Assembly (NCBI GenBank): GCA_028293125.1
Contig: JAQGPJ010000103.1
Location: 124,001-188,000, forward strand
Length of the DNA: 64,000 nt
Source: Verrucomicrobiales bacterium
Lineage (GTDB): Bacteria > Verrucomicrobiota > Verrucomicrobiia > Verrucomicrobiales > V1-33
Reading direction: 5' to 3'
Shown here: one piece after another, positions 36,726 through 53,575 of the stretch
How positions within the stretch are numbered: the stretch's first letter is position 1
How the letters are laid out: each line of letters opens with the position of its first letter
The notes under the pieces: generated by a model
The model's input: only the letters and a program-made list of their open reading frames with translations
What the model was told of the DNA's origin: nothing
Databases searched by the model: none
Made by a program: the position numbers and the translations under genes

Positions 36726-38297
36726 ATGGAGCTGACCTTCACCCAACGCCTGCTGGCGCAGAGCCTGGCTGTGCTCACGCTGCTGCGCTGGTTTCTGGCG
36801 GGGCTGCACGACATCTCGCCGGCGGAGGCGCAGCTGGTGGAGACACTTCGGCATCCGTCCCTTGCAGGACTGGAGGGGGGAAACCTGACCGCCTGGCTGG
36901 CGGGGGTGGGCACTTTTGTCTTCGGCGACTCGCCCTTCGGTGTCCGCTTCGCCGCGCCGCTGCTGATGGCGGGATCCAGCTGGATGCTTTACCGGCTGGC
37001 GCATTCACTGACCGGGGAGAAAACCGCAGGCTGGGCGGTGGCGCTCTTCAACCTGACGCCGATGGCCAATCTGGCCGCCGTGCAGATGCGCCCGGAAACG
37101 CCGGGCATCTTCTTTTTGATCGCCGGTCTGGTTTCAGTGTGGCGCGGACTGCGCCGGGCATCGCCATGGGACTGGCACTGGCCGCTGGCGGGCATGCTGT
37201 TCGGGCTGGGGTTTCTCTGCTGGTATGGGGCCGTGTGGGGCTTGGCGGGCACCCTGCTGCTGTTGGCGGGATCGCGCCGGTGGCGGGGGCTGCTGCGGCG
37301 TCCGGGTCCGTGGTTGATGGCGGCGGACTTCGCGCTGTTCGCCTGGCCGGTGTGGGACTGGAACCGTTCGCATGCCGGGGCGGCGTATTTTTTCTGGCGC
37401 GACGTCGTGCGTCCACCGGAACAGGGATGGCAGTGGTCCGGACCGCTGGTGCAGGCCGGACAGTGGCTGCTGATGGTCAGTCCGGTCATGTTCGCGGCCA
37501 TGCTGTGGGCGCTTTTCCAAGCCGTGAAACAGTGGCGCGCCAGCGATGCCGCGCGCTTCATCACGGTCATGGCCCTGCCGCCGCTGGCCGCCGCCTGGCT
37601 GGCGTCCCTGAGCGCGGGACCGCGTCCCGCCTGGCTGGCTCCCGCGTTCCCTGCGCTGTGCCTGCTGCTGCCATGGGCATGGGAGAACCACCTGCCTGAC
37701 CTGAGGAGGAAAATCCAGCTTCAGTGGCTGTGTGTGCTGCCAGCGCTGGTGGTCACCCCGCTGGTTCTGGACACCGATCTGCTGCGTCACGCGGGCGTGC
37801 CTCTGACCTACCGGCATGACCAGTCCCGGAACTGGCGCGGCTGGCGGACCGTGGCGAAGGAGGCGGAGGAGATCATCCGCAGCGCGGCGCCGCAATCCCC
37901 CGGCGGGCTGTTTGTCATCGCCCAGGACGCGCGGCTGGCCTCCGTGCTGAACTTTCACCTGCCGCTTGGCCTCCCCCTGCTGCGGCCCACTCCCCGGCAT
38001 CCGCTGGTGATGACGCCCTCCGGCCCGGTGCCGGAAAGTGACTATCATTTCTGGCCGGATTACAGTGGCCAGTCGGAGGGGAAAAACGCGTTCCAAGGAC
38101 GGACCGCCCTCTACTTCACCACCTCCCAGGCGGATGCCCCGCCGCCCCGGGTGCGCCGACTTTTCCGCGGCTGCCAGCCACTGACGGTTTTTGATGTGAT
38201 CCAGCGCGGTCTGCCGCTGCGGAGGATCCGGGTCTTTGGCTGCCATGATTACAAAGGCGGCGTCGGTCCTGCCGGCACTGCCCTCGGCGGCGGCTGA
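36726..38297 (+). CDS. GT39-like membrane glycosyltransferase, separate member
   Basis: A 523-residue polytopic protein of the GT-C (GT39/ArnT-like) type with about eleven hydrophobic segments and a soluble C-terminal domain. The first loop reads LHDISPAEAQLVETLRHPS in place of the D-E motif; Asp and Glu are present but spaced differently from the tandem set at 17113-21991, so this protein is a different branch. The typical GVRFAAPLLMAG and AVQMRPETPGIFFL segments of the family are clear. It would transfer a sugar from a lipid carrier outside the cytoplasmic membrane; the acceptor is unknown. It begins 139 bp after the SNF2 helicase stop and ends 79 bp before the MFS transporter, same strand. 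Confidence 0.8.
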   Translation: MELTFTQRLLAQSLAVLTLLRWFLAGLHDISPAEAQLVETLRHPSLAGLEGGNLTAWLAGVGTFVFGDSPFGVRFAAPLLMAGSSWMLYRLAHSLTGEKTAGWAVALFNLTPMANLAAVQMRPETPGIFFLIAGLVSVWRGLRRASPWDWHWPLAGMLFGLGFLCWYGAVWGLAGTLLLLAGSRRWRGLLRRPGPWLMAADFALFAWPVWDWNRSHAGAAYFFWRDVVRPPEQGWQWSGPLVQAGQWLLMVSPVMFAAMLWALFQAVKQWRASDAARFITVMALPPLAAAWLASLSAGPRPAWLAPAFPALCLLLPWAWENHLPDLRRKIQLQWLCVLPALVVTPLVLDTDLLRHAGVPLTYRHDQSRNWRGWRTVAKEAEEIIRSAAPQSPGGLFVIAQDARLASVLNFHLPLGLPLLRPTPRHPLVMTPSGPVPESDYHFWPDYSGQSEGKNAFQGRTALYFTTSQADAPPPRVRRLFRGCQPLTVFDVIQRGLPLRRIRVFGCHDYKGGVGPAGTALGGG

Positions 38298-38376
38298 TTT
38301 TTTTTGTGGCCCTGCCCGCTCCGGGCGGTCAGCATGGGCGCGGACGCCGGATATTTGCGACCAGCCCGTTATTTCC

Positions 38377-39675
38377 ATGAGCACCGCTCCTGACACTTCC
38401 GTGAACGAGGAAAGCCTGTACCGCAGGGTCACCTCGCGGCTGATACCATTTCTGTTCCTATGCTATGTGCTGTCGTTCCTCGATCGGGTGAATGTGGGTT
38501 TCGCCAAATTGAAAATGCTGTCCGACCTGGGCTTCAGCGACACGGTTTACAGCCTGGGGGCGGGCATCTTCTTCATTGGCTATTTTATTTTTGAGGTCCC
38601 CAGCAATCTGCTGCTGGAGCGCGTCGGCGCGCGGATCTGGATCACCCGGATCATGGTCACCTGGGGCTTGATCTCCTCCGCGATGATGTTTGTGAAGTCG
38701 CCAGCCAGCTTTTATGCGCTGCGGTTTTTACTCGGTGTCGCGGAGGCCGGATTTTTCCCCGGCATTATCCTGTATCTGACCTACTGGTATCCGCCGGAGC
38801 GCCGGGGGCGCATCGTCTCGCTGCTCATGATGGCCCTGCCGGTGGCGGGCATGGTGGGAGGTCCGCTGTCAGGGTGGATCCTGAAGTCCTTTGACGGCCT
38901 GCATGGCATGGCGGGCTGGCAATGGCTGTTTCTGCTGGAGGGACTGCCCTCCGTGGTGGTGGGAGCCATGGTGCCGCTGTTTCTGCGCGATGGCATCCGG
39001 AGTGCCAAGTGGCTGTCCGAGGCGGAGAAGCGGACTCTGGAATTCCGGCTTTCACGCTCACTGGAAAAACCATCGGACAAGCCGACCCTGGCCAAACTGC
39101 TCATGCGCCCCCGGCTGCTGGTGCTGAGCCTGATTTATTTCTGCGTCAGCATGGGGCTGTACGGAGCCGTGACCTTCTGGCTTCCGCAGCTGGTGGCGGA
39201 CACCGGAGTGAAGGACATGCTGCATGTGGGCCTGCTGACCGCCCTGCCCAATCTTTGCGCCATTCCGGCCATGTGGCTGGTGGGACGCAGCTCCGACCGC
39301 CGCGGGGAGCGGCGGCGCCACTTCGCCATCAGCGCCCTCTGCGGGGCCGCCGGCCTGGCGCTGAGTGTGATGGCCGGGCAGCACGTGGCGGCCTCTGTTC
39401 TTTTCCTGTCCGTCGCCACCTCCGGCATCATGGCCGCCCTGCCCGTGTTCTGGTCCATGGGCACCGCGCGTCTGGGAGCCTCCGCGGCGGCGGGCATCGC
39501 GCTCATCAATTCCATCGGCGGACTGGCGGGATTCAGCGGCCCCTCCGCCGTGGCCTGGATCAAGGGAGTGACCGGCGGAGGGCTGGCTCACGCGATGTAT
39601 TTCATCGCCGGCTGTCTGGTGCTGGGAGCCCTGCTGACTCTGTTCGCCATTCCGGCGGAATCCGAACCCAAATAA
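38377..39675 (+). CDS. MFS transporter, anion:cation symporter (ACS) family
   Basis: A 432-residue permease with twelve predicted helices in two halves. It has the ACS-type signature FLDRVNVGFAKLKML in helix 1, GYFIFEVPSNLLLERVGAR in helices 2-3, the central loop with RMxS-like GRIVSLLM, and LVGRSSDRRGERRRH in loop 8-9. The family carries organic anions such as glucarate, tartrate and phthalate together with H+ or Na+. The substrate cannot be inferred here because no catabolic gene is next to it. The ATG at 38377 gives the usual short N-terminus. The gene converges on the alpha-2-macroglobulin gene. Confidence 0.88.
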   Translation: MSTAPDTSVNEESLYRRVTSRLIPFLFLCYVLSFLDRVNVGFAKLKMLSDLGFSDTVYSLGAGIFFIGYFIFEVPSNLLLERVGARIWITRIMVTWGLISSAMMFVKSPASFYALRFLLGVAEAGFFPGIILYLTYWYPPERRGRIVSLLMMALPVAGMVGGPLSGWILKSFDGLHGMAGWQWLFLLEGLPSVVVGAMVPLFLRDGIRSAKWLSEAEKRTLEFRLSRSLEKPSDKPTLAKLLMRPRLLVLSLIYFCVSMGLYGAVTFWLPQLVADTGVKDMLHVGLLTALPNLCAIPAMWLVGRSSDRRGERRRHFAISALCGAAGLALSVMAGQHVAASVLFLSVATSGIMAALPVFWSMGTARLGASAAAGIALINSIGGLAGFSGPSAVAWIKGVTGGGLAHAMYFIAGCLVLGALLTLFAIPAESEPK

Positions 39676-39720: not shown

Positions 39721-39775
39721 ATCACGGATTTCAGCGTGGGGAAAAGCAGTGCTTTCCGTGCTGGAAATCCGTGAT
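39721..39775. terminator. Long imperfect hairpin between convergent genes
   Basis: ATCACGGATTTCAGC at 39721-39735 pairs with GCTGGAAATCCGTGAT at 39760-39775 (one bulged base); the interior holds a second hairpin, GGAAAAGCA / TGCTTTCC. Position between the converging MFS and macroglobulin genes suggests a bidirectional terminator. Confidence 0.65.
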
Positions 39776-39829
39776 TCTCCACTTGGGGCCGCCGGCTTCA
39801 GGGCCGATTCCCGCCCTGGTTTGAAGCCC

Positions 39830-42800
39830 TCATTTTTTCAGCGCTTTCTCGGCCTGAACACCTTGGCCGCCGCTGCGGCGCTTAACGTCCCAGTTTTTGA
39901 GGTTGCCCTCCTGGATCTGGCTGTTGTAGAAATCCACATTCTGCAGATAGGCGTCCTTGCTCAGCACCTTGCCCCCGAAACTCTGGGGAATTTGAGGCGG
40001 ATCGAACTCAACGTTTTTCAACATCCGGCCTTGGGGATCGACCGAGGAGGCTGGAGTGGTGGGGGTAACGCCGGGACTGGTCAGAGCCACGGTGCCCCGG
40101 TGGAAGGCGTAACGGTTGTCCCCCTGCCGCACGATGACGGTGGCGGTGCCGCTCAGGCCGCTGGCTTCGAAGATGCCGCGCGGGTCCGTCTGACCGGACT
40201 GGATGCCGGTGACTCCGCTGGCTATGGCCTTGACCTCGGCCCCGGCCACAAACTTGCCGTCGGCGGCGCCAAGCACATTCACGCGCACGCTGCCGGCGCC
40301 GGCGTCCTCTCGCACATCCAGCTTCAGCCCCGTGATCAGCACCAGACCGCTGGTGAACAGATCGTCTCCCCGCGCGATCACCAGATAGGCCCCCTCCTCT
40401 TTCAAAGGCAGCACCGCGTCCGTGTGAAGGTCGGTCCATGGCGCGGCCTGCGCGGTGTCCACGGGCACGGAGGCCTCCGGCGCGATGCCGGCGAGGTTGA
40501 CGCTGGTGACCCGGCTGAGATTTTTCTCCCGGAGATAGAGTTTCATCAGGTCCACCTTGTAAATCTGGAGGGAGACCTCTTTCACATTGCGGTGGCCCAC
40601 GCTGATCCTGACCTCCTGTCCCGGCGTGAGGGTGGTGATCTCCGGCACATTGATTTTTTTCTCCTCGAAAGCGGCCAGGGCATCGGCGGCGTCAGGGTAC
40701 TTGGCCTTCACTTTGCGGTACCAGTCCACAGCTTCGGCGGGCTTGCCCTCGGCGTGGTAAATCTGGCCGGTGATGTAGCGCGCCAGATCGCGGTCACGAC
40801 TTCCGCCATTGGCCACCGGTGCCGCCGCCGCCAGCGCCTCCGCGTAGTGGAACTGCCAGAAGTGCCCCAGCGCCGCCATATACTGGAACTGGCTGGCGAA
40901 GGGGCTGTCCGGCCAGCGTTTTCCGGCGGACTCCGCGGCGGCGGTGACCGCGGCGTAGTCCTTCAGGGCGAAGAACGCATTGGTCAGGCTGAAGGCCGCG
41001 TCGTCCGCGAGGGCGTCGGCGGGATAGAGGGTGATGAAGCGGTTGAGCAGATCCCGGCTGCGCTCCAGCAGGGCGTTTTTCTCCAGTTTTTTCTGTCCCC
41101 GGCGGACGGAGACGCCCTCCGCGTTGGCGGCATTGCGGAACAGGCCCTGACTCAGGGCGAACAGGGCACCGCGGGCGTCCTCGCTGTCGGGCGAGTCGAA
41201 CCACAGCGCCTCCTGGAAGTCCACGCTGCCGGCGTAGTCGCCCCGGTCCTCCAGGGCGGCGCTGATGCCGGAGTCCGAAAGGAAATTCGCCTCCACCGCC
41301 GCGCTGAAGACATTGGCCCCGCGCTCGTGCTCGCCGATTTTCTGATAGGCCCGGCCCACGCGCAGGATGCGGTCGAAGGGGATCAGCAGGCTTGGATGCC
41401 GTTCATTCAGAGTTTCAAAGGCCTGCACGATCTGCGCGGCGTCGCCGTCCGGGGTGTCGGTCAGCAGCCACAGTCTCATGCGGGTCAGGTCCTTTTCAAA
41501 ATCCGCCCTCCTCGCCGAGGGGGCCAGGGCATCAAGGTGCTTCAGGCACTCCGCCGGGTTTCCGCCCTCGAACGTCAGCCGGGCCAGCTCAAAGTGCTCC
41601 GCCTGGTTCATCTCGTAAGGATCCGGCGACTTTCCGCCCGGTGCCAGCACCGTCAGCGAGGCCGGAACGCCGGGCCGGTATTTGGCGAGGTCGTAGGCAT
41701 CGCTGAGAATGGATGGGGCCAACGTGGAAACGCCGGGTGCCAGAGCCACGATCCGGTATTTCAGAGGCTCGATCACTCCCGGTCCATAGACTAGCCTGAT
41801 GCGGTCCGGAAAAATGTCCACCCGGTTCCAGTTGCCCTCTAGGCTGTCGGGCACCAAGGCGAAACAGGCGGGAATCGGCTCCTCCCAGATCAGATACTGC
41901 GGATGCCGGGTGGCCTCCAGATCGTTTTCTCTGAGCCGCACCTCGACATTCAGGATCTGGCCGGTCTCCGCCGTTTTCACGGGGCTGGTGCTGGCGGCGT
42001 TCAGCTCCGTGCCGCTGTGCCACAGGGGAAGATGCAGGTACCGGCGGCTGGCAAACTCCGGATTGGCCCACGGTTTGGGATCGGAGAGTTCCTTGGGCAC
42101 ACTGGCGAGGACAAGGGAGACGATGACCCGTTTTCCGTCCTTTGGCTGAACGGTGAGCCCATTGACGCCCTCCGCCACCGGCAGCGCCACCCGGTCAGGA
42201 TTGCCGTTCTGATCCAGCGGGCCCTGCGCCGTGGAGAACTGCGCGTCCCCGGGCTCCGTCCAGTCATTGCCACCCGTGAACCATGCGTCCAGCGCCACCG
42301 CCACGGGTCCGGCGGACAGCAGCCGCGCGTCCGGACTCATCAGCCGCGAGCTCAGCAGGGAGTTCACCGCCGCCGCTCCGGTGGCGGATGCGGGATCCAG
42401 GCGGGCGGCGCTCCAGAGCACCATGGCCGCCACCAGCTCCGGCTCGCCGAGCCTGACAATACGGATGCTTCCCTGCCACGACGCGGTCTCCAAGGTGGAG
42501 CCTGTTTTTCCGCGGACCGCCCGATCCTCCAGCGTTTTCAAAAGCTGCCGGGCCTCCTCCGGGCGGTCCATGCGAACCAGCGCCGCCGTCAGGAAAGCGA
42601 GGGCGCTGTCCGAAAGTTTGTCCCTGACGCGCAGCAGCGGCGCGGCATTGGCATAGTCGGCCTGCCCGGCGGCGGCCATGGCCTGCAGCACCGCCGCCTT
42701 TCTCTCGTAGTCGTCCACCGGGATGCCGGCGTAGCTGGCGGTCAGGAATTTCCCCACCCGGTCCTGAAGTTTGTCACTGACCGTGATGCCCGCCTGTTTG

Positions 42801-45800
42801 GCCGTGTGCAGCGCCCACCAGGTCCAGGCGGTTGTCAGGATGTCCGGGGAAATATCCAGCCCGCCCCACGCCCAGCCTCCGCCCTGCTCCCGCAGCGCCA
42901 GTTCACTGACCAGTTCACGGCAGCGCGCGGTCAGCGCCTCCACCTCCGCCTTGCGTTCATCCCCCGCTTTCCGCAGGCGCTGTATCAAGGTCACCTTCGC
43001 CAGCAGTTCCGAAGCCGGCATCAGCTCCGCATTCCCTCCGGAGGATGCAGCCGCCAAAGCGGCGAGCAGATCGCCGGGGGTGCGGAAAATACGGCCCGCC
43101 GCATACTTCAAGGGCTCCGCCGGCACGCCGGGCGCGGAAAGCCCGAAGACACTGTTTCCGGACAGCACGCCGCCGGCGGTTGTCACTTTGGCGGAGGATC
43201 CCAGGTAAGGAACACTACTGTCAGGTTTTTCGGCAGCCGGGGCCCAGGCCGCCAGCAGCTGGCCGTCGGCTGATTCCAGCCGGATGCCGGTGGCCCCTCC
43301 CTCAATGCTGGTCTCCATCGGGAAAAGCATGCGGAGATTTGCCTTCTCCAGCTTGATCTCCGTCTGGCAGCGGGTGCGCCCGGTTCCGGTCACTTTCAGA
43401 GTTCCCTCCAGCCCCGAAGGATTGGTCACCACCAGCAGCGCGGAGGCGGCCTCGGGCTTGATCACCCTCAGCCCAAGGGGATGCCTGATCTCCACCGGCA
43501 GGGAAGCTTGGGTGACGCCCGACTGCGGTGTCCACACTTGGACCACCGCCTGCCATTGCCCATCCGGCAGTTCACCCGCATGGAAAGCCCCCGCCTCCCG
43601 CTCCGCCGTTCTCCAGGCGGGAGCGGCGGTCAACGCGCCCGCAGCCCCTTCCGTATCCGCTCCGCCGCCGGCCTTGCTGCTGAACAGAACCGCCAGCGGC
43701 ATCCTCAAAGGAGTTCCCACGGTTCCGGGCTCAGCGAATATTTCTCCGGCTCCGCCGGAGGCCGCATCCGGAATGGCCGGCAGGATAATCGACTGAACGA
43801 AGCTGTCGGCGGCGCGCCTCACCCCCGTGGCGAACAGCAGCAGTCCAGCACTGCGGGAGGAGGGACTCCCTTGCTGGACGAAACAGTTGAGGTCTGTAAA
43901 GACTTTATTGTCAGTGAGGAGAACCGAATTGGAGCGGTTGAGGTCGGACTCCAGTCCCTGCACCGCTATCAGCCGCAACTGATCATTCGCGGCAACCTCG
44001 ACCGCACCCGCGGGGACGCCCGTGGCCGGCTCGACCTTGACGGAGGTTCCAGGAAACATCAGATCCGCGCTGGTGTGGATGGCCAGCCGCAGGTCACGGG
44101 GTTTCAACAGTGGCAGCAGCTCCTGCCTGGCGGTTCCGGGGGCGACGGAGGTGCCGGAAAAATCCGCCTCGGGATCCGGCGAGGTCCGGATCATGCCATG
44201 CAGCACCGTGGCCGCCACCGGCTTGCCGTCCATTCCCGTGACCTCCACCGCGGGGTTCCCGCCAGGGACCGCCGCCGGCTTCAGCGCCACATTCAGGCTC
44301 CGCCGCACTTGGAGGCCCACGGAGGCGGCGCAGAGCCGCCGGCCATCCAGCGCCGTGGCCGTCACTTGGAAATTCGGCGCATGGGCAGCGGTGACCGGCA
44401 GCGGCAGATCCGTCAGGCCCTGCGGCACGGAGAGCAGCTGATGACTCAGAAAGCGGTCCGCGGAGGCGGTGACGAGCACGTGGTTGAAGGGCTTGAGCGA
44501 CTGCAGCCTCAGCACGGCGGTGGAGCCCTCATTCACCGTGGCGGCGGACGCGAACAGACGGAGCGCGTGGGGATCCGCGCCGCCGGAGGCGTAAAACGGT
44601 TTTTGAACGGCCACCTTGCCGTCCGGAAACGCGAAGCGCACCTCATAATGTCCTCCGTCCCCGATTTTGAAGGTGCTGACCGCCTCCCCTGTGATTTCAT
44701 CGACGGTCAGTTCCTGAGACTCCACCTTCTCTTCAGCGGTCGGAGGCGGAGTGTAGCTGATCCATGGCACCCCCTCCAGAACCCGCGAGGGTGGTGGAGC
44801 CGTATAGCGGAACAAAGTGGCCGTGACGGGCCGGGCGGCGGCCCTGCCGTCATAACCGAGGGCGCGGATCTTGGCGGTCATGGCACCGCCGGCGGGCACT
44901 GTTTCCGGAGCCTGAAAGATCATGATATTGCCTTCCACGGTGGTGACCTGGAGGTTGCCGGTCACCGGCTGGGCCGAAGGCTGTTTGGGCAGGCGGACGG
45001 TCACCGACTCCATGCGCCACGGGGTTTCCGTGCCGGAGGTGGCCTGCACCTCAAACTGCAGCACGCCGGCGGCATCCGTCTCCGCCCGTCCGGTGTGGCC
45101 ATCGGGAAAGGTGATCTCCACCTCCTCGCCGGCCAGGGGCAGCCCCCAAGGCCAGTCCGCCATCAGGGTGGCCTGCACTTTGGCGCCGGGCCTGGCGACA
45201 GGCGCGGCGAGCTTCAGCAGCAGTCTGGGCGTATGGTCCGCCGAGGCCTCCATCACGGGAAATTCGGCACTGATCAGCACTTGTTCGTCCGTCGCCAGCA
45301 GCTGTGCCTTGTAGCCGCCCGCAGGGGCGTTGGAGGGGATTTTAAACTGTCCCCGCACGGTGCCGTCTGCCTCCCATGAGACCGGCTGCGCCAGCACCAG
45401 ACGGTTGTCAGGCGCGAGAATGCGCAGGGTGGCGGCCCCGGCCGCCGGCTTCATGGCTCCCTCTTTGCGCTCCCGGCGCAGCATGAGAAAGCCCGCCGTC
45501 TGGCCGGGGAAATACTCAGGGCGGTCAAAGACGGAGTGCACGGCGTAATCCGGCTGCTCCGTGACGGTCAGGCCGGTCAGATCCAGCCCGGACACCATGG
45601 CTCCCTGGGAAGTCAGGACAAAAGCCCGCACGGTGTCCGGCAGAGCTTCGTGGGGCAGCAGGAAAACACCGTCGTCCCCGGTTTTGCCGTTGGCGATGAT
45701 GCTTTTGCCATCGCTCACCAGCACACTGGCCCCGGCGGCGGGTTTGTTTTCACGGGCGTTGAGGGCCAGCACCAGCAGGCCGCCCCGCGTGGCCTCGGTG

Positions 45801-47965
45801 ATGAGTTCGATATCACTGCGCACCACCAGCGTGGTGGCCTGCCAGTCGTCGCCCTCCACCCGCACCACGCAGGCCCCGGCGGCGTTGTCAGGAAAGGGGA
45901 TGTCAATTTTCTGCTGGAGGCTGCGCCACTGCTCATAACCGCCGATCTCCACCTCCCACGTTTTTTCAGGGGCGATGAGATCCACGTCCAGCTTCTCCAG
46001 CCCGTCGAGGCGGTGGGCGCTGCGCAGCCAGGCCCCAAGGTCGAGGGCGTAGCGGCTCACTTTCACCTTTTTGATATTCCGCACACTCAGCGCCAGGTGC
46101 GGCACCTCATTGGTGCGGAAAACACGGGGCGCGGAGATGGCCAGGGACTTCTCCTCCAGAATCGCGGCCCGCTGTTTGGCCAGGGGCGCCCACTGCCCCC
46201 AGGTCAGCCGGCGGAAAGCGGCGAGCCCCTCCTCAGTCCGGTCCAGCTTGTCTGTCAGGATGAGGGCGGTGTTGTAAAGCGCCAGCGAGGCCTCATCCGA
46301 GTCCGGATACTTCGCGATAAGCCGCGACCACTGCTCAATGGCGCTGCGGAAGAGATCCAGCGTGGCGGCGGCGGGCAACGGGCCATCCAGGGTTTTGACG
46401 CGGTCATCCAGCTCCCTCACCTGGGCGGCGGCGTAGGGGGTCTGTCCATAAATGAACAGAATCTGCCGGGCGCGTCCATCCAGAGGGTATTGGGTCAGGA
46501 AGGCGTCCAGCCTCTCCCGCGCCTGCTTTGCATCCCCGGCCGCCACCGCCTCCAAGCTGATCTGAAATTCCGCATCGATGATCCGCTGCTGGGCCTCCGC
46601 CCACTGGCCTCCGTTGGGATGGTTCACCGTGTAGGCGCGCCAGCGGGCGATGGCGGACTCAAACTTTTTCCGGTCAAATTCGGTCTGCGCGGTTTTGAAT
46701 AGCGTTTCCTGCCTCCGGCGGCTGAGCGTATCGGCAGGGGAAAGACCACTGGCCGGATCCGGCGCGGCATTCGCAGGCAGCCGGGGATCAAACTGATAGT
46801 TTTTCCCGTCAATAAAATCAGCGAACGCCGCCAGCGCCTCATCCGTGCGGCCCAGCGCCAGCAGGTCCTGCCCAATCAGCCGCGACGCCTCCGGAGCCTG
46901 GGTGTCCGCGGGCCACGCGGCGAGAAAAGCCTGCAGGGCATCAATATGACGGGGGAAATCGGTGGATGAGGATGCCGCCACCTGCCTGATTTGCTGGACT
47001 TGCTGGTTGTAGGCCGGCGGCGGAAGGAGGCTATTAGCCCGATGCGAAGGTATGGTGTTGGCACTGTTGGCCTCCCCCTCCGGAACGGACTGGAACTGAT
47101 CGGCATACATCGCCGGTCCTCCGATGATCTGGCAGCGCAGCCAGGCGGCCGAAGCCATCATTCCGGGTTCCGGAGCCGGCTGCAGCGCCAGCAGAGAATC
47201 CACGGTTTTCAGCGCCGGCCCCCAGTCCGGACGCGACATCAGGCACTGCGTCAGCCGCAAACGGGCTTCGGGGATGTGCCTGCCGGGCTGGATGAAGCGT
47301 TTCGCGCCGCGGGGTTTCTCCACTGCCGGGCCGGCGTCGCCACGGGCTCCTTGGGCGTCCGGCGAGCCCGGCCGGCCCACCCCTGCGGGAATCCAGTCCC
47401 GGTCGAACTGGATCAGGTAATCATTCAGCACCGCTAGGGCATTCTCCGCCTGGCCCAGTTTCTGAAGCGTGACCGCCAGCTTGAAAAGCGTGGCCTCCGT
47501 GAAGTCCGGCGTCTGGAACTCCACCTCCAGCGCCCGGCGGTACAGCAGGGCGGCGGCCGCGGGATTGGCCGGTGGAACGTCAATTTCGCCGGGAGCGGGA
47601 ACACGCGCCAGTTCATCGCCGAATTCCGCAAGCCGGCCTGCCAGTCCATCCTTCCGCGCAGAGGCAAGAGCCTGCGCGGCCTCCCCCGCCAGAAGGGTCT
47701 CCGCCTCCGCGAATTTCTTCTGATCGGACAGCGCCTGCGCTTTCAGAAACCGGGCCTTGCGGGCCCATCGGGAATCCGCCGGCACGGCTTCAGCAGCCGT
47801 CACCGCCTCCGCCGCTTTCCCATCCGCCAGACTGGCCGCCGCCTGCCCGTACTGGCGCGCCCGGAGCTGATCCTCGGCCTCCCCCAGGGCGTCGGCTTTC
47901 AGGGAGGGCATAAAACCTGCAGCCAGGGGGATCAGCAGAACCGGGAAAAACAGGGAAGGTTTCAT
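39830..47965 (-). CDS. Giant exported TPR/alpha-2-macroglobulin-like protein, thioester lost
   Basis: A 2,711-residue exported protein with a signal peptide (MKPSLFFPVLLIPLAAGFM). Order of parts: TPR-like helical repeats (about 25-620); an MG domain opening RNIKKVKVSRYALDLGAWL (about 630); a run of MG/Ig domains with the A2M bait-like region; a helical thioester-like domain (about 1620-1950, with GGGWAWGGLDISPDILTTAW); a receptor-binding-like beta domain (about 1990-2120); a second TPR block (about 2130-2440); and a final MG domain opening RNVKEVSLQIYKVDLMKLY (about 2465). The thioester motif position YxxGCxEQ reads YAAGRIFRT (R1625-R1628), so the protein cannot form a covalent trap. Bacterial A2M proteins guard the periplasm against proteases; this thioester-less version would act by binding or by some other role. 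It is 8.1 kb, the largest gene here. Confidence 0.88.
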   Translation of the reverse strand: MKPSLFFPVLLIPLAAGFMPSLKADALGEAEDQLRARQYGQAAASLADGKAAEAVTAAEAVPADSRWARKARFLKAQALSDQKKFAEAETLLAGEAAQALASARKDGLAGRLAEFGDELARVPAPGEIDVPPANPAAAALLYRRALEVEFQTPDFTEATLFKLAVTLQKLGQAENALAVLNDYLIQFDRDWIPAGVGRPGSPDAQGARGDAGPAVEKPRGAKRFIQPGRHIPEARLRLTQCLMSRPDWGPALKTVDSLLALQPAPEPGMMASAAWLRCQIIGGPAMYADQFQSVPEGEANSANTIPSHRANSLLPPPAYNQQVQQIRQVAASSSTDFPRHIDALQAFLAAWPADTQAPEASRLIGQDLLALGRTDEALAAFADFIDGKNYQFDPRLPANAAPDPASGLSPADTLSRRRQETLFKTAQTEFDRKKFESAIARWRAYTVNHPNGGQWAEAQQRIIDAEFQISLEAVAAGDAKQARERLDAFLTQYPLDGRARQILFIYGQTPYAAAQVRELDDRVKTLDGPLPAAATLDLFRSAIEQWSRLIAKYPDSDEASLALYNTALILTDKLDRTEEGLAAFRRLTWGQWAPLAKQRAAILEEKSLAISAPRVFRTNEVPHLALSVRNIKKVKVSRYALDLGAWLRSAHRLDGLEKLDVDLIAPEKTWEVEIGGYEQWRSLQQKIDIPFPDNAAGACVVRVEGDDWQATTLVVRSDIELITEATRGGLLVLALNARENKPAAGASVLVSDGKSIIANGKTGDDGVFLLPHEALPDTVRAFVLTSQGAMVSGLDLTGLTVTEQPDYAVHSVFDRPEYFPGQTAGFLMLRRERKEGAMKPAAGAATLRILAPDNRLVLAQPVSWEADGTVRGQFKIPSNAPAGGYKAQLLATDEQVLISAEFPVMEASADHTPRLLLKLAAPVARPGAKVQATLMADWPWGLPLAGEEVEITFPDGHTGRAETDAAGVLQFEVQATSGTETPWRMESVTVRLPKQPSAQPVTGNLQVTTVEGNIMIFQAPETVPAGGAMTAKIRALGYDGRAAARPVTATLFRYTAPPPSRVLEGVPWISYTPPPTAEEKVESQELTVDEITGEAVSTFKIGDGGHYEVRFAFPDGKVAVQKPFYASGGADPHALRLFASAATVNEGSTAVLRLQSLKPFNHVLVTASADRFLSHQLLSVPQGLTDLPLPVTAAHAPNFQVTATALDGRRLCAASVGLQVRRSLNVALKPAAVPGGNPAVEVTGMDGKPVAATVLHGMIRTSPDPEADFSGTSVAPGTARQELLPLLKPRDLRLAIHTSADLMFPGTSVKVEPATGVPAGAVEVAANDQLRLIAVQGLESDLNRSNSVLLTDNKVFTDLNCFVQQGSPSSRSAGLLLFATGVRRAADSFVQSIILPAIPDAASGGAGEIFAEPGTVGTPLRMPLAVLFSSKAGGGADTEGAAGALTAAPAWRTAEREAGAFHAGELPDGQWQAVVQVWTPQSGVTQASLPVEIRHPLGLRVIKPEAASALLVVTNPSGLEGTLKVTGTGRTRCQTEIKLEKANLRMLFPMETSIEGGATGIRLESADGQLLAAWAPAAEKPDSSVPYLGSSAKVTTAGGVLSGNSVFGLSAPGVPAEPLKYAAGRIFRTPGDLLAALAAASSGGNAELMPASELLAKVTLIQRLRKAGDERKAEVEALTARCRELVSELALREQGGGWAWGGLDISPDILTTAWTWWALHTAKQAGITVSDKLQDRVGKFLTASYAGIPVDDYERKAAVLQAMAAAGQADYANAAPLLRVRDKLSDSALAFLTAALVRMDRPEEARQLLKTLEDRAVRGKTGSTLETASWQGSIRIVRLGEPELVAAMVLWSAARLDPASATGAAAVNSLLSSRLMSPDARLLSAGPVAVALDAWFTGGNDWTEPGDAQFSTAQGPLDQNGNPDRVALPVAEGVNGLTVQPKDGKRVIVSLVLASVPKELSDPKPWANPEFASRRYLHLPLWHSGTELNAASTSPVKTAETGQILNVEVRLRENDLEATRHPQYLIWEEPIPACFALVPDSLEGNWNRVDIFPDRIRLVYGPGVIEPLKYRIVALAPGVSTLAPSILSDAYDLAKYRPGVPASLTVLAPGGKSPDPYEMNQAEHFELARLTFEGGNPAECLKHLDALAPSARRADFEKDLTRMRLWLLTDTPDGDAAQIVQAFETLNERHPSLLIPFDRILRVGRAYQKIGEHERGANVFSAAVEANFLSDSGISAALEDRGDYAGSVDFQEALWFDSPDSEDARGALFALSQGLFRNAANAEGVSVRRGQKKLEKNALLERSRDLLNRFITLYPADALADDAAFSLTNAFFALKDYAAVTAAAESAGKRWPDSPFASQFQYMAALGHFWQFHYAEALAAAAPVANGGSRDRDLARYITGQIYHAEGKPAEAVDWYRKVKAKYPDAADALAAFEEKKINVPEITTLTPGQEVRISVGHRNVKEVSLQIYKVDLMKLYLREKNLSRVTSVNLAGIAPEASVPVDTAQAAPWTDLHTDAVLPLKEEGAYLVIARGDDLFTSGLVLITGLKLDVREDAGAGSVRVNVLGAADGKFVAGAEVKAIASGVTGIQSGQTDPRGIFEASGLSGTATVIVRQGDNRYAFHRGTVALTSPGVTPTTPASSVDPQGRMLKNVEFDPPQIPQSFGGKVLSKDAYLQNVDFYNSQIQEGNLKNWDVKRRSGGQGVQAEKALKK

Positions 47966-48149: not shown

Positions 48150-48173
48150 CACAAAGTTCTTTGTGCCACAAAG
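48150..48173 (+). promoter_or_regulatory. CACAAAG inverted repeat plus third half-site
   Basis: CACAAAG-TT-CTTTGTG is a perfect inverted repeat with a 2-nt spacer (48150-48165), followed one base later by a third copy of CACAAAG (48167-48173). It lies 56 bp before the start of the membrane protein at 48229 and 185 bp before the divergent macroglobulin gene. Operator identity is inferred; no regulator is matched. Confidence 0.5.
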
Positions 48174-48228
48174 TGTAAGCTGGAAAATTTTCTACGGCAA
48201 CCGACGTTTGAAAGCTACCTTGTTTTAC

Positions 48229-48939
48229 ATGCAACCATCTCTATTTCATCAGGCTCTGCGCGAGCTGCCAGTCCTGTGCCAAGGACGGACCGAGAGACTG
48301 GGAGAGTGGCTGGCGAACCCCACCGGAGCCCGTCTGGCAGCCTGCGCCGTGGCCATCGCCGCCGGCGGGGCGGCCTATGGGTTCACGCTGGGACTGTGGC
48401 GCGCGCCCCTCATGGGGGGCTATGTGGCGCTGAAGCTGCCGCTGCTGCTGGGCCTGACCCTGCTGACCAACGGGCTGATGAACGGCATGCTGGCGCAGGT
48501 GCTGGGAAGCGGTCTGAGTTTCCGCCAGACGGTGATGGCCATGCTGATGAGCTTCACGACTTTCGCGCTGATCACGGGAGCCCTGAGTCCCGTGGCGCTG
48601 GCTTTGGTGTGGAATGCCGCCGGACCTGGTGAGCCCGGCGGCAGTGTGGCCTACCGCGTGATCCTGCTGACCCAGACGGCGGTCATCGCCTTCGCGGGCA
48701 TCACGGCGCACCGGCGGTTCTGGCCGGTGCTGCGGGCGGCCTCGGCCTCGCCACGGGCCGGGACGCTGGTGTTCCTGACGTGGCTGGCGGGCAATCTTTT
48801 TGTGGGCGCGCAGCTGTCCTGGAACCTGCGGCCCTTCTTCGGCCAGCCCGCACGGCCCGTGGAGCTGTTCCGCGCCGACTGGAACCGCAGCAGCTTCTAC
48901 GAGTCCATTTACAAAAACCTGACCAGCTTTCTTCCCTGA
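48229..48939 (+). CDS. Polytopic membrane protein of unknown function, paralogue A
   Basis: A 236-residue protein with about six hydrophobic segments. The N-terminal 40 residues are soluble (MQPSLFHQALRELPVLCQGR). It has helices such as VALKLPLLLGLTLLTNGLMN and a final amphipathic domain ending LSWNLRPFFGQPARPVELFR. The ATG at 48229 is preferred to upstream starts that would run through the operator-like repeats. It is clearly related to the following gene: both place an R-P-x-x-G motif (RPFFG / RPLLG) directly after the last helix, followed by a polar tail of about 25-30 residues rich in F and N/E. No named family is recognised. Confidence 0.72.
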   Translation: MQPSLFHQALRELPVLCQGRTERLGEWLANPTGARLAACAVAIAAGGAAYGFTLGLWRAPLMGGYVALKLPLLLGLTLLTNGLMNGMLAQVLGSGLSFRQTVMAMLMSFTTFALITGALSPVALALVWNAAGPGEPGGSVAYRVILLTQTAVIAFAGITAHRRFWPVLRAASASPRAGTLVFLTWLAGNLFVGAQLSWNLRPFFGQPARPVELFRADWNRSSFYESIYKNLTSFLP

Positions 48940-48997: not shown

Positions 48998-49735
48998 ATG
49001 AACGATATTTCCTCACCACCGCCCCCCATGCCCGGCCCCCGGCCCATTCCCTCCAAGGCGCAGCCCCGCGTTATGATCCTCGAGCCCATGGACCGAACTC
49101 CCGGGCTCGCGGCCACCATGGAGGCGCTGCTGAAACGGCCGGGATCGGCGGTCAGGGAATTCGCCGAGGGCCTGCGGGCCGGCAAACTGAGTGCCAGCCT
49201 GACGACGGTCATCCTGGGCGGCCTCGCCTTGTTCGGGCTCACGGCGGTGGGATTCTCCAGCGGCGGGCAATGGTGGGCGACCCCTTTGAAGATGATATCC
49301 GGTCTGGCCCTGTCCACGGCCCTGTGCCTGCCAAGTTTCTATATCTTCTCCTGCCTTTCAGGACTGGAAATCTCCTTCCGGGCCTCTGTGGGACTGCTGA
49401 TGACAGCCCTGGGGCTGACCGGGCTGCTGTTGGCGGGTTTCACTCCAGTGGTCTGGGTTTTTAGCCAGAGCACCGGATCGCTGGTGTTTCTGGGAGGCAT
49501 CCTGCTGGCGGGGTGGCTGGTGGCGTTGTTTTTCGGGATGAAGCTGCTGACCTCGGGAGCCCGCGCCCTGGGCATGAAGGACGGCCTGCACCTGCGGATC
49601 TGGCTGGGTATCTTTGTGCTGGTCACCCTGCAGATGACCTGTGCCCTGAGGCCGCTGCTGGGAAAGGCGGACACCTTCCTGCCTAATGAGAAAAAGTTCT
49701 TCCTCCAGCACTGGGGCGAGCAGATAGGGGGATAG
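48998..49735 (+). CDS. Polytopic membrane protein of unknown function, paralogue B
   Basis: A 245-residue protein with a Pro-rich cytoplasmic or periplasmic N-terminus (ISSPPPPMPGPRPIP) and about six membrane helices from residue 70 on (SLTTVILGGLALFGLTAVGF, PLKMISGLALSTALCLPSFY). It ends MTCALRPLLGKADTFLPNEK, the same end module as paralogue A. It starts 58 bp after paralogue A on the same strand, so the two probably act together, for instance as a heteromer. The neighbouring stressosome operon converges from the right, with no functional link in sequence. Function unknown. Confidence 0.72.
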   Translation: MNDISSPPPPMPGPRPIPSKAQPRVMILEPMDRTPGLAATMEALLKRPGSAVREFAEGLRAGKLSASLTTVILGGLALFGLTAVGFSSGGQWWATPLKMISGLALSTALCLPSFYIFSCLSGLEISFRASVGLLMTALGLTGLLLAGFTPVVWVFSQSTGSLVFLGGILLAGWLVALFFGMKLLTSGARALGMKDGLHLRIWLGIFVLVTLQMTCALRPLLGKADTFLPNEKKFFLQHWGEQIGG

Positions 49736-49816: not shown

Positions 49817-52156
49817 TCAGGCTTCGGAGGAATCCGGTCCCATCACTTCAGCAATGGCCTTTTCCAGATCCGCAATCCGCAGCGGTTTGGTGAGATGCAT
49901 ACTGAAGCCGGCCTGCCGGCTGCGGGCGATATCATCCTTCATGCCGTAGCCGCTGACAGCAATGCCTTTAAGCTCCAAGTCCTTGGAAAGTGTCCGCATC
50001 AGATCGTAGCCACTGGCGTCCGGCAGGCCGATGTCGCTGATCAGCAGCTCGAACCTTGTCTGTCCGGCCTCGCGGCAGGCGTCCGCCACACTCCCCGCGA
50101 TGACCACTCGGTGTCCCCGGCGCTCCAGCAGGGATTTGAACGAACTGCGGGTATCCTGATGGTCATCCACCAGCAGGATGTGATAACCGCTCCGCGCCTC
50201 CGGCATCAAAGGCGCCGCCACCGGCGTCCGCACGGGCGAGGATGACTTCACGGGCGGGTTTGGCCCCAGCTTTCCCACCTTATCACCGGCTGAATTCTCC
50301 GGTTTCACAGGATCGGAAATCAGATTCAGCGTGACGGTGAACACCGAGCCCTGATCCGGACCATCACTCCGGGCCGAGACCTCCCCCTCGTGGGCGGTGA
50401 CAATGCTCCGGCAAATGGCCAAGCCCAGCCCCAGGCCGCCAAAGGAGTTCTCACCGTTTTTCACCTCCGCCTGCTCAAAGGGCTGGAAAATAATCTCCGT
50501 GCGGTTGGCGGCAATACCGCTGCCTGAATCGCTGACCGTGACCCGGATGACATCCTGTCCCTTCTCCTTCTCATTCCACGTCCGCACCACCACCATGCCG
50601 CCGGAGGAACTGAATTTGACCGCATTGTTGACCAGATTCCAGAAAACCTGCTGCAGACGCACGGAATCCCCCAAAACGGTCCGGTGTCCGGCCTCCAGCT
50701 TCAATTCCAGCCGGATGCGCTCCTCCGCCGCATAACTTGAGCAGGCATGACAGGCGGCCTCGATGATTTCATGCAGATCAACGGGCTCCCGGTTGATGAT
50801 GACCTTGCCGCGCGAGATGCGGGTCATGTCCAGAAGATCATCAATCAAGCGGGTCTCCAGTTCCAGATTGCGGCGGATAAGACGGATGTCCTCCAAGGCT
50901 TCCAGCGGCATCCCAGCGTATCCCTCCAGCAGCGACAAACGGGCAAAGATGGGATTCAGGGGATTCCGCAGCTCATGGCTGAGGATGGCCAGAAACTCAT
51001 CCTTGGCCGCGCTGGCGGAACGCACGCTTTTGTAAAGCCGGGCGTTCTCAATGCCTATGGCCGCCTGAAGCGCCACGCTGGCCAGGATGCGCTCGCTTCT
51101 TTCACTGAAAACTCCCGGTGAACGGTGGGCAAAAACCATGGCCCCTGACTGGATTCCCGAGGCCAGGACCACGGGCACCGCCAGATAACTGCGCAGGACA
51201 ATCCCTTTGGGAACCAGCCGCACCCCGCTTTCCTGCTCCAGATCGTCAAACCGCACCATGGCCTGACCGGGCGGACACTCATGCATCACCCGGTGAATGG
51301 CCAGGGCATCGTCGCCGCGGAGCTCCACCGCCAGCATGCCGGCCGTGTGCTGGCGGACCGGGGGATCGGAATCGCTGTCCTCATAAACAAAAACGCCCAC
51401 CTCCGCCCCGGTGATTTCCGTGGTGGCGTCGATCAGCGCCTGGAGAAGATCATCCAGCTCCAGCTTGGACGCCAGCACGTGTCCCACGCGGTAGATCGTG
51501 TCCAGCTCATCGTAAAGCGCCACCACTCCGCGGTTGGTCTCCTGCAGCTCATCGTTCACCCGGACCAGTTCCTCGCTCTTCTCCCCCACCTTCTCCATCA
51601 TAAAGAGAAGCTCGTGGTCCTGACTGCTCAACTCCTCCACGGGGCTGGCCTCCCGGGGCCCGGCCACGGAATCGACAATGGGCTGCAAATCTGTTTTGGA
51701 GATGCTTTTTCCGCGCGGCAATCCCTTTTCCAGACGCACCGTGGTGCCGGAAGGACCGGTTTCCACGACCTCCACACTGTCCATCAAACGGTGAGCACCC
51801 AGGATGCCCATGCCCATGCCGGTGGCTGATTTATACCGCCCGGCCAGCACCTCCTCCAGATGGGGAATGCCCGGGCCCTCATCCTGAATCACGCACACCA
51901 GACTCTGGGGATTGCGTTTTGAAGGAGCTTTGGGGGCGGCTGCGGTCTCGAACAAAAACTCCGCCGAGGCGTTTTTGGCGTAACGGAAAGCGTTGCGGGC
52001 GATTTCCGAAACTGCGGTGGCGATCCGGATCTGGTCCTGCCGGTCAAACCCGAACTTCTCGGCCACCTGCTTGGCGCGGTTGCGGCACAGCACCACATCC
52101 GGCTCCTGCTGAAGCCGCATCCTGAACAGGCGGAAGAGGGCGGGCGATTGGCTCAT
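49817..52156 (-). CDS. Hybrid sensor kinase with RsbT-like N-terminal ATPase domain
   Basis: A 779-residue signalling protein, the last gene of the stressosome operon. Order: RsbT/RsbW-type ATPase domain (residues ~10-135; ATAVSEIARNAFRY and IQDEGPGIPH, G2 ATGMGMGILGAHRLM); a coiled-coil linker (~150-215, LFMMEKVGEKSEELV); GAF (~225-360); HisKA with H394 in AILSHELRNPLNPI; HATPase (~450-610; NLVNNAVKFSS, DSGSGIAANR); and a receiver (~660-779) with acceptor D708 in LLISDIGLPDASG. It would take a signal from the stressosome through the N-terminal ATPase domain or GAF and phosphorylate its own receiver or a partner. Its ATG overlaps the stop of the upstream phosphatase gene (ATGA), so it is translationally coupled. 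No DNA-binding output is fused. The upstream extension in the same frame belongs to another gene. Confidence 0.88.
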   Translation of the reverse strand: MSQSPALFRLFRMRLQQEPDVVLCRNRAKQVAEKFGFDRQDQIRIATAVSEIARNAFRYAKNASAEFLFETAAAPKAPSKRNPQSLVCVIQDEGPGIPHLEEVLAGRYKSATGMGMGILGAHRLMDSVEVVETGPSGTTVRLEKGLPRGKSISKTDLQPIVDSVAGPREASPVEELSSQDHELLFMMEKVGEKSEELVRVNDELQETNRGVVALYDELDTIYRVGHVLASKLELDDLLQALIDATTEITGAEVGVFVYEDSDSDPPVRQHTAGMLAVELRGDDALAIHRVMHECPPGQAMVRFDDLEQESGVRLVPKGIVLRSYLAVPVVLASGIQSGAMVFAHRSPGVFSERSERILASVALQAAIGIENARLYKSVRSASAAKDEFLAILSHELRNPLNPIFARLSLLEGYAGMPLEALEDIRLIRRNLELETRLIDDLLDMTRISRGKVIINREPVDLHEIIEAACHACSSYAAEERIRLELKLEAGHRTVLGDSVRLQQVFWNLVNNAVKFSSSGGMVVVRTWNEKEKGQDVIRVTVSDSGSGIAANRTEIIFQPFEQAEVKNGENSFGGLGLGLAICRSIVTAHEGEVSARSDGPDQGSVFTVTLNLISDPVKPENSAGDKVGKLGPNPPVKSSSPVRTPVAAPLMPEARSGYHILLVDDHQDTRSSFKSLLERRGHRVVIAGSVADACREAGQTRFELLISDIGLPDASGYDLMRTLSKDLELKGIAVSGYGMKDDIARSRQAGFSMHLTKPLRIADLEKAIAEVMGPDSSEA

Positions 52157-53163
52157 GAGGCGGACTGGCGGATGACAACCACCGTGGCGTCGTCGTGCTG
52201 GTGCCTGTGATCCCGATATATAACGCCAGCGACGAGTCCGGGATGCCTCCGAATCAGTCCCGGATACTTTTCCAGGTCCCACCGCGAGCTGATGCCGTCG
52301 GAGTGCAGGATCAGCAGGGAGTCCGGTTTCCATGGATGCGGCATCTCCTGCACCTTTCTCACGCTGGCTCCCAGAGTGCCATTGTCCGCATGCAGTGTTT
52401 TGGCTCCCGCGTCCCCCAGAACGCGCATGGTCACATTTCCAATGCCAGAACTGACAAGCCGGCATCCTTCAGGGTCAATACTGACCGTGGAGGCCGCGGC
52501 CCCACGTGTTTTGAACAGCGCCTGGTGCGCCAGCGAAAGGCATTCCGAAGGACTGATGCGGGCGTGTCTGCGGAATACCGACACCGCCTCCCGTGAAGCC
52601 TCCGCCGCGAAGGGCCCATGTCCCAGACCGTCAGCTAGCAGCACTTGCAAACCGTCCGCGGATTCCCGGAAATCCCACGAATCCCCGCACATATCCTCCC
52701 CTTTCAGCGCCACGCTGACACCACTGCAGATAAATTTCCGGGCCGCGGCACGGGAAGCGTCCGGAACCAAAGGAAAATGCACCCAGACCGCAGTGCCCTG
52801 CCCCGGCTGGCTGTGAATCTGAAACTGCCCGGCCAACCGCTGCACCGCCCCCAGTCCCGTGCCGGCGCTGCCCGCTGTCGAAAAGCCGTCCCGCAGGCAG
52901 GCGTTCACGCTGACCATACCCGGTCCTTTGTCCAGAGCGTGCATCTCCAGCACATAGGCCCCCTCCACTTCCAGTTCATTAAGAAGAATCTCCCCGCCCT
53001 GGCCATGCTTCACCAGATTGCTGGCCAATTCCGTAGCCACAATTGCCGCCTCCCCGGCCTTCACTTCACCGGCACCCAGCCGCTCCGCGGATTCAAGGAC
53101 CTGACGGCGCACGTGTCCAACATGGCCCCCGTGCGTGACCTCCATGCGCAGACTCGGCCTCAT
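52153..53163 (-). CDS. ATPase-PP2C fusion (RsbX-like phosphatase of the stressosome)
   Basis: A 336-residue two-domain protein. Residues ~1-130 are an RsbT/RsbW-type ATPase domain (VATELASNLVKHGQGG, DKGPGMVSV, AGTGLGAVQRLAG). Residues ~140-336 are a SpoIIE/PP2C phosphatase with the metal-binding Asp residues visible in EDMCGDSWDF, LLADGLGHGPF, LHSDGISSRW and the terminal HDDATVVVI. In Bacillus the separate phosphatase RsbX resets RsbS/RsbR by removing their phosphates; here it is fused to a kinase-type domain. It begins 4 bp after the RsbT gene and overlaps the downstream kinase gene by 4 bp. Both domains look intact, so it may both bind and dephosphorylate STAS partners. Confidence 0.88.
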   Translation of the reverse strand: MRPSLRMEVTHGGHVGHVRRQVLESAERLGAGEVKAGEAAIVATELASNLVKHGQGGEILLNELEVEGAYVLEMHALDKGPGMVSVNACLRDGFSTAGSAGTGLGAVQRLAGQFQIHSQPGQGTAVWVHFPLVPDASRAAARKFICSGVSVALKGEDMCGDSWDFRESADGLQVLLADGLGHGPFAAEASREAVSVFRRHARISPSECLSLAHQALFKTRGAAASTVSIDPEGCRLVSSGIGNVTMRVLGDAGAKTLHADNGTLGASVRKVQEMPHPWKPDSLLILHSDGISSRWDLEKYPGLIRRHPGLVAGVIYRDHRHQHDDATVVVIRQSAS

Positions 53164-53167
53164 GTTC

Positions 53168-53575
53168 TTATTTCCACCGGGTTATGGTGATGTGCGTGCC
53201 CTTTCCCGGCGCGGACACCAAGTCAAATTCATTCACCAGCCGCTTGGCACCGCCCAGCCCCAGCCCCATGCCCCCCCCGGAGGTGTAGCCGTCCCGCAGC
53301 GCCAGTTCGATATTTTCAATCCCAGGGCCCTCATCTGCAAAATGGACACGCACCCCTTGCCGCACTCCCTCCCGCAGCAGTTCCAGAACAACCTCCCCGC
53401 CACCGCCGTAGATCAGCAGATTCCGCGCGAGCTCACTGGCCGCCGTAATGATTTTGGTCTGATCCACCAGCGACAGTTTGATCTCCACTGACATTCGCCG
53501 CACCGCTTGGCGGACCGTGACAATATGCTGCTCCTCACTGACCTCCAGCTTCTCAGATTTCAACAAAGTTGCCAT
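53168..53575 (-). CDS. rsbT: Switch kinase RsbT
   Basis: A 135-residue serine kinase of the stressosome. It shows AASELARNLLIYGGGGEV (N box), HFADEGPGIENIE (G1) and GYTSGGGMGLGLGGAKRL (G2), the characteristic RsbT pattern. The ATG at 53575 lies inside the 3' end of rsbS (23-bp overlap), typical for these operons. In stressosomes RsbT is held by RsbS until stress; it then phosphorylates RsbS and RsbR and is set free to act on downstream partners. Here the two downstream genes encode proteins that themselves carry RsbT-like domains. Confidence 0.93.
   Translation of the reverse strand: MATLLKSEKLEVSEEQHIVTVRQAVRRMSVEIKLSLVDQTKIITAASELARNLLIYGGGGEVVLELLREGVRQGVRVHFADEGPGIENIELALRDGYTSGGGMGLGLGGAKRLVNEFDLVSAPGKGTHITITRWK

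Follow-up and report, generated by a model that had tools for sequence, protein, structure and literature searches.

Introduction

Alpha-2-macroglobulin (A2M) of human blood traps proteases by means of a thioester, a chemical 'glue'. A2Ms that lack the thioester are known as Type II and one of these, MagD of Pseudomonas aeruginosa, carries no CXEQ motif and is reported to hold TEV protease non-covalently once the bait region has been cleaved (PMC5764988). MagD protects against some peptidoglycan-targeting T6SS effectors (PMC12663445).

A 2025 preprint (PMC12485934) describes CAGE, a hollow homotetramer of approximately 1 MDa built from a protein of about 2,200-2,400 residues in Tetrahymena (CAGE1-3) and Dictyostelium (AbpF). 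Its homologues number in the thousands, are mostly bacterial, notably from Planctomycetota and Verrucomicrobiota, and in bacteria carry signal peptides. CAGE was presented as a 'novel fold' of unexplained function and origin. Two of its beta domains find their best PDB matches in A2M, and the authors made no A2M assignment. Beyond this preprint we found no papers on bacterial A2Ms in the Verrucomicrobiota.

Here we consider a gene in a window of 64,000 nucleotides, the whole stretch of DNA analysed, from a Verrucomicrobiales bacterium (assembly GCA_028293125.1, contig JAQGPJ010000103.1, positions 124,001 to 188,000). On balance we favour the view that its product represents a distinct exported family of thioester-less A2Ms with duplicated end units, probably a bacterial CAGE that would enclose clients non-covalently in a hollow shell.

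The gene and its surroundings

The gene (39830-47965) is an uninterrupted open reading frame (ORF) on the minus strand, with the ATG at 47965 and the stop codon at 39830-39832, and encodes 2,711 amino acids. The ORF and the full-length homologues together define it as a probably exported, thioester-less A2M with a TPR-NIE-MG1 unit at both ends. Judged by the flanking ORFs in the window it stands alone, without operon partners. It is flanked upstream by a small membrane-protein-like ORF in divergent orientation (48163-48939) and downstream by an MFS transporter gene that converges on it (38236-39675). No gene set resembling the six-gene mag operon of Type II A2Ms flanks the gene in the window or in its relatives, and no PBP1c gene, the partner of Type I A2Ms, sits beside the window gene among the MFS transporter and small membrane-protein-like ORFs. 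The relatives' A2M genes share no conserved neighbourhood; their neighbours are unrelated housekeeping genes, which rules out operon partners.

The upstream ORF and the one after it (48998-49735) are both membrane-protein-like, approximately 250 residues long, divergent from the A2M gene and devoid of Pfam matches. A regulatory cluster at 49817-53641 comprises a hybrid of HATPase, GAF, histidine kinase and response regulator (882 aa), a SpoIIE-phosphatase-like protein (336 aa) and an anti-sigma-type HATPase (157 aa). Long ORFs of up to 681 aa run antisense to the A2M gene on the plus strand (39749-41794, 41903-43273 and 43481-45379) and similar ones lie opposite the relatives' genes; they are probably spurious, a product of codon bias at high GC. 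In two lineages DUF1549/DUF1553 and DUF1501 genes adjoin the A2M gene and differ in orientation (L031:1101-4718 and L033:2-3428), the DUF1549/DUF1501 pair being common only to L031/L032 and L033.

Distribution of the family

Full-length family members are found here and there in the Verrucomicrobiota and also in Poribacteria, with 26-58% identity to the window protein. Those relatives that are named belong to Akkermansiaceae, Verrucomicrobiaceae, Spartobacteria and Candidatus Poribacteria. The relatives are about 2,300-2,800 residues long, complete or nearly so, and some end at contig ends. Identity is 58% for L026, about 40% for L027-L032, 34% for L033 and 26-30% for L034-L036 from Poribacteria; L063 and L065-L068 are further members in other Verrucomicrobiota. 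The domain order that the original prediction proposed seeking in related genomes is therefore there, in full-length homologues from both phyla. Detection depended on profiles. A scan of genome contigs with the single protein returned no relative whereas the family alignment returned 11, and phmmer with the single protein gave no match to PDB sequences whereas the family profile did.

Could a gene of this length be an assembly artefact or a fusion of separate genes? The same full-length architecture recurs in many independent genomes of two phyla, which refutes both; no support for either was found, and we attach practically no credence to them.

The family is patchy, with strong matches to the C-terminal unit in five of 388 genomes of the phylum. 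Ordinary A2Ms (PF00207) are present in 69 of 145 Verrucomicrobiota genomes. Among the matches listed from these 145 genomes, other A2Ms have frames that reach no more than about 2,300 aa, which upholds the length contrast drawn in the original prediction, and the sole longer frame (G016, 2,700 aa) is itself a family member.

The same genome encodes two further A2Ms with a thioester motif, on contigs C66 and C96. The first is a 2,065-aa frame with YPYGCAEQ. The second, with HDCTEQ, lies beside a PBP1c gene and is split into two frames. This Type I A2M (L024:2031-8041) consists of overlapping frames of 1,076 and 1,042 aa, the latter holding HDCTEQ, with an apparent frameshift near L024:5235 that is due either to sequencing error or to a pseudogene. 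The PBP1c genes of this genome are on C96 and C21, and the pair on C96 means that a canonical A2M-PBP1c pair exists apart from the window gene. PBP1c had been suggested as a partner encoded elsewhere in the genome; it belongs to the other A2M and is ruled out as partner of the window protein.

A TPR-containing A2M, P0006 (G011 contig 8), resembles the window protein in a weak N-terminal TPR and in its MG2, BRD and A2M domains. It differs in that its sequence stops at a contig end before the TED and that the family HMMs found in it neither NIE nor a C-terminal unit.

Domain organization

Pfam recognizes YfiO/TPR, bMG3, MG2, A2M_BRD and a C-terminal TPR in the window protein; PF00207 goes undetected by Pfam in this sequence and is present in the relatives L034 and L065. 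AlphaFold models cover residues 400-1440 (mean pLDDT 75.5) and 1560-2711 (mean pLDDT 74), with most domains confident. Domain HMMs, these models and structure searches give a core in the order MG2-MG5, bait-like linker, MG7, CUB with inserted TED and MG10, framed at each end by a TPR-NIE-MG1 unit. The original prediction of a 2,711-residue ORF with TPR and MG-type domains at both ends is upheld by Pfam, models and family HMMs, and that of an A2M core between them by HMMs and structure alignments. All features below are encoded on the minus strand.

The N-terminus (residues 1-24; 47894-47965) reads as a likely Sec signal peptide without a lipobox cysteine, as in the relatives, whose N-termini are hydrophobic, so the protein would be exported to the periplasm or beyond. 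A TPR/YfiO-like helical block follows (residues 25-603; 46157-47893), delimited by Pfam YfiO and TPR matches, model helices and conservation; its proximal half, 411-603, is the conserved one. The N-terminal NIE-type domain (604-717; 45815-46156) was assigned with VIA-align and a family HMM, and MG1 (718-800; 45566-45814) with Pfam bMG3, residue 1 of mature C3 aligning at model position 319, which is residue 718. From the NIE domain onward the N half matches Salmonella A2M, VIA-align placing model positions 204-988 on 155-930 with Z 19.2 and an rmsd of 14 over 612 residues.

MG2 (805-905; 45251-45553; Pfam MG2, E 2e-10) aligns with MG2 of human A2M (2p9r) with Z 12.9 and rmsd 2.5. MG3-MG5 (906-1245; 44231-45250), supported by Pfam, model, structure alignment and family HMMs, divide into MG3 (906-998), MG4 (999-1130) and then MG5, with the A2M_BRD match at 1144-1244 inside. 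A variable linker before MG7 (1360-1440; 43646-43888) is predicted to be disordered (pLDDT < 50) and would occupy the position of the bait region; it has 24% mean pairwise identity and ranges from 69 to 107 residues among the relatives. MG7 itself (1441-1565; 43271-43645) is defined by a family HMM that matches MG7 of thioester A2Ms and by PF00207 in L034 and L065.

The first part of the CUB domain (1590-1629; 43079-43198), with strands 1605-1609 and 1619-1627, and the second (1898-1985; 42011-42274), located by alignment of the model to native human A2M, enclose the TED, an alpha/alpha toroid of 12 helices (1630-1897; 42275-43078; VIA-align). VIA-align superposes the TED on the C5 TE domain (9y6c) with Z 23.3 and rmsd 3.3 over 260 residues, and on C4 (1hzf) with Z 22.5; the proposed check of the thioester-domain fold by structure prediction is thus answered in its favour. 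The core ends with an MG10/receptor-binding-type domain (1986-2110; 41636-42010; model, structure alignment, family HMM). Over the whole span from CUB to the receptor-binding domain, VIA-align places model positions 33-547, residues 1592-2106, on native human A2M with Z 29.8 over 474 residues.

The second end unit consists of a TPR block (2111-2433; 40667-41635; Pfam, model, Foldseek, family HMM), an NIE copy (2434-2550; 40316-40666) and an MG1 copy (2551-2625; 40091-40315; Pfam, profile comparison, family HMM, conservation). The C-terminal tail (2626-2711; 39833-40090; model, alignment) has a long helix, predicted by AlphaFold at 2670-2698 with low confidence, and a conserved KRRS..KGV-type motif. 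Over its 60-86 or so residues W/F..KRRS..KGV is kept in Verrucomicrobiota and RRS..G[VI] in Poribacteria. The tail may serve as a peptide for assembly or docking.

L064, a thioester A2M (YPYGCTEQ) from the same phylum, is matched by each of the HMMs built from the family for MG2, MG3-5, MG7, CUB-TED and MG10, with E values as low as 4e-18. The Pfam and family HMM matches together with the VIA-align structure alignments establish the window protein as a member of the A2M superfamily, by both sequence and structure.

The thioester site

No CxEQ is present anywhere in the window protein, which rules out a hidden motif elsewhere in the chain, and none occurs in the 16 of 16 family members read, some of them incomplete at contig ends. 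The original prediction was right that the thioester is missing but placed the site at YAAGRIFRT. This string (1621-1629) belongs in the model to CUB strand 1619-1627, after which come helix 1630-1643, a loop without Cys at 1644-1649 (GNAELM; 43019-43036) and helix 1650-1666, which opens with PASELLA. Aligned with three A2Ms that keep YPYGCxEQ, among them YPYGCTEQ and YPYGCAEQ sequences, the motif falls at the loop, at about 1644-1650 and just before PASELLA. The true slot is therefore some 20 residues C-terminal of YAAGRIFRT, and that string is ruled out as a degenerate motif. The placement uses the multiple alignment, hhalign against two thioester A2Ms being too loose near the motif, and in this alignment no family member has CxEQ at the loop.

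CxEQ is absent from every member examined, so the loss of the thioester preceded the spread of the family; it is ancient, family-wide and seen in two phyla. What the original prediction called 'destroyed' is this old loss and not a motif decayed at YAAGRIFRT. The stretch around the slot, 1630-1650, has 20% mean pairwise identity and is the least conserved segment measured.

By class, the window protein lacks the CxEQ that Type I A2Ms have at the TED start, and shares with Type II the lack of CXEQ and a bait-like linker that may be cleaved. It might then be a Type II, MagD-like trap or envelope-defence factor of the periplasm, a monomer or hetero-complex whose ends replace MagA, MagB and MagF, and would form no hollow homo-oligomer. 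TPR blocks are common protein-binding modules and could serve such a role. The lost thioester and retained bait-like linker are as in MagD, with its guard against peptidoglycan-targeting T6SS effectors (PMC12663445). Against this stand the lack of mag-operon neighbours and of any conserved neighbourhood, and a layout whose two ends both correspond to CAGE, whereas PMC5764988 nowhere uses the word 'tetratricopeptide'. We consider this explanation unlikely. Non-covalent trapping as reported for MagD (PMC5764988) does give the mechanism first proposed for the window protein a precedent, so the claim that such a trap would be new falls.

Duplicated end units

Compared profile to profile, residues 595-810 and 2430-2640 align over 181 columns with E 3.3e-15 and 26% identity. 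The two NIE models match each other (E 1e-9 and 5e-9), and the N- and C-terminal NIE HMMs cross-match in P0001, L065, L066, L067 and the C-terminal part of L068. Foldseek matches the C-terminal model to the NIE-MG1 pair of ECAM (4zjh); the range was not printed and the model holds only one such pair. A different fold for the C-terminal MG part, which would have undone the original prediction, is thus not what is seen. The thioester A2M L064 has one NIE match and no C-terminal unit by the family HMMs. The sequence comparisons show that the NIE-MG1 parts at the two ends are true internal duplicates, as the related strings at the start of each had suggested. Only the number of domains needs correcting: TPR and MG parts exist as foreseen, and the duplicated part comprises two domains at each end, NIE and MG1, rather than one.

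Conservation is uneven. Mean pairwise identity of the end units is 44-58% overall (N-terminal NIE 52%, C-terminal MG1 55%, proximal N-terminal TPR 50%, C-terminal TPR 49%) except for the distal N-terminal TPR, 25-410, at 33%, and the C-terminal NIE copy (2434-2550), at 58%, is the most conserved segment of the protein. MG7 has 24% and the TED about 38%. The arms have been maintained by selection, while divergence has affected the bait-like linker and the parts around it.

End units so much better conserved than the core are what a scaffold or adaptor would show. In that reading the arms serve as docking sites for the cell wall or for secretion or outer-membrane proteins, and the core, no longer a trap, is a spacer. 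The missing thioester and fast core divergence also fit a core that traps nothing, and to that extent count against a container. Yet every A2M core domain is kept in order across two phyla and the TED retains its fold as well as its mean pairwise identity of about 38%, none of which a mere spacer need do. We judge the scaffold improbable.

Comparison with CAGE

The CAGE domains listed in PMC12485934 are a helical domain (1-443), beta domains (444-555, 556-635, 636-748, 758-843, 851-951 and a split 963-1195), a beta domain (1215-1244 and 1565-1598) that encloses a helical one (1244-1559), then a beta domain (1606-1738), a helical domain (1751-2011) and a final domain (2014-2215). The last is read as beta because the preprint calls all domains besides 1, 2, 11, 13 and 14 beta. 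The window protein has the same order, in a mapping made post hoc: alpha, six beta, split beta with inserted alpha, beta, alpha and a beta unit of some 200 residues. Both the CAGE list and the window protein show the CUB/TED topology, a beta domain split by the insertion of a helical one. Lengths of the 13 mapped segments correlate with a log r of 0.93, a value reached in none of 100,000 permutations, a figure that overstates the match as the mapping was drawn by eye after both lists had been seen. Domain 9 of CAGE, a small, scattered sheet, has no counterpart in the mapping, and from the fifth MG domain to CUB there are 459 residues in the window protein against about 252 in CAGE1. The family profiles identified no chain as CAGE in a PDB copy that may hold no CAGE entries, and fold searches of the PDB gave no CAGE structure among the matches listed.

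By this modelled layout the window family is probably bacterial CAGE, and CAGE would therefore be a thioester-less A2M. We lean towards regarding CAGE of protists, fungi and bacteria as a branch of the A2M superfamily, derived from an exported bacterial A2M that had lost its thioester and duplicated the TPR-NIE-MG1 arm, the A2M sequence of the window family showing the link.

Assessment of function

How might such a protein work? Duplication of the TPR-NIE-MG1 unit would have put a copy at both ends of the A2M core. Copies of the protein, four in CAGE, would form a hollow shell, in which the two conserved end units are likely to provide shell contacts or sites where partners dock. The most likely client would be a foreign enzyme, such as a protease, that cleaves the exposed and variable linker ahead of MG7. 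It may then be enclosed non-covalently, in the way reported for MagD.

A container of this kind could instead be an exported, chaperone-like one for the cell's own clients, with no cleavage trigger. A role of that sort is among those the CAGE authors propose (PMC12485934), but no client is known and the disordered, variable, bait-like linker has been retained at the A2M bait position; we think it very improbable.

If the link of our preferred reading to CAGE is true, an orphan megadalton particle of ciliates, slime moulds and bacteria gains an A2M family and a bacterial origin, and the mechanism to test is non-covalent enclosure, possibly triggered by cleavage of the bait-like linker. Even without that link, the family shows a complete A2M chassis maintained in two phyla although its reactive bond is missing, and the concentration of conservation in the duplicated end unit directs the search for function there.

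Comparison with known A2Ms

The best bacterial structural matches of the window protein are Type I A2Ms, which go with PBP1c (E. coli YfhM/ECAM, Salmonella A2M) and have NIE, MG1-MG10, CUB and TED in the same order. Type I proteins have a CxEQ thioester, 1,600-1,650 residues and a PBP1c neighbour; the window protein has none of the three and adds the TPR blocks and second NIE-MG1. Complement C5, an animal plasma protein with anaphylatoxin and C345C domains and no TPR, likewise has a TED without thioester in an otherwise complete A2M-superfamily chain.

MagD is alike in its A2M core, lack of CXEQ and retained bait region, and is periplasmic where the window protein is probably exported. It differs in belonging to a six-gene mag operon with the partners MagA, MagB and MagF whereas the window gene is alone, and the accessible text of PMC5764988 mentions neither TPR nor a C-terminal NIE-MG1 copy. 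Our literature search found no A2M precedent for a duplicated TPR-NIE-MG1 arm.

CAGE shares the helical N-terminal block, the series of beta sandwiches, the second helical block and the terminal beta unit of about 200 residues. With 2,216 aa CAGE1 is the shorter protein. Pfam recognises no domain in it, and the preprint called its fold novel; the tetramer is known only for eukaryotic forms, and the comparison with the window protein is one of domain lists. Set beside these systems, the family owes its interest to the duplication of its arms and to the probable connection with CAGE, not to the lost thioester, which has a precedent.
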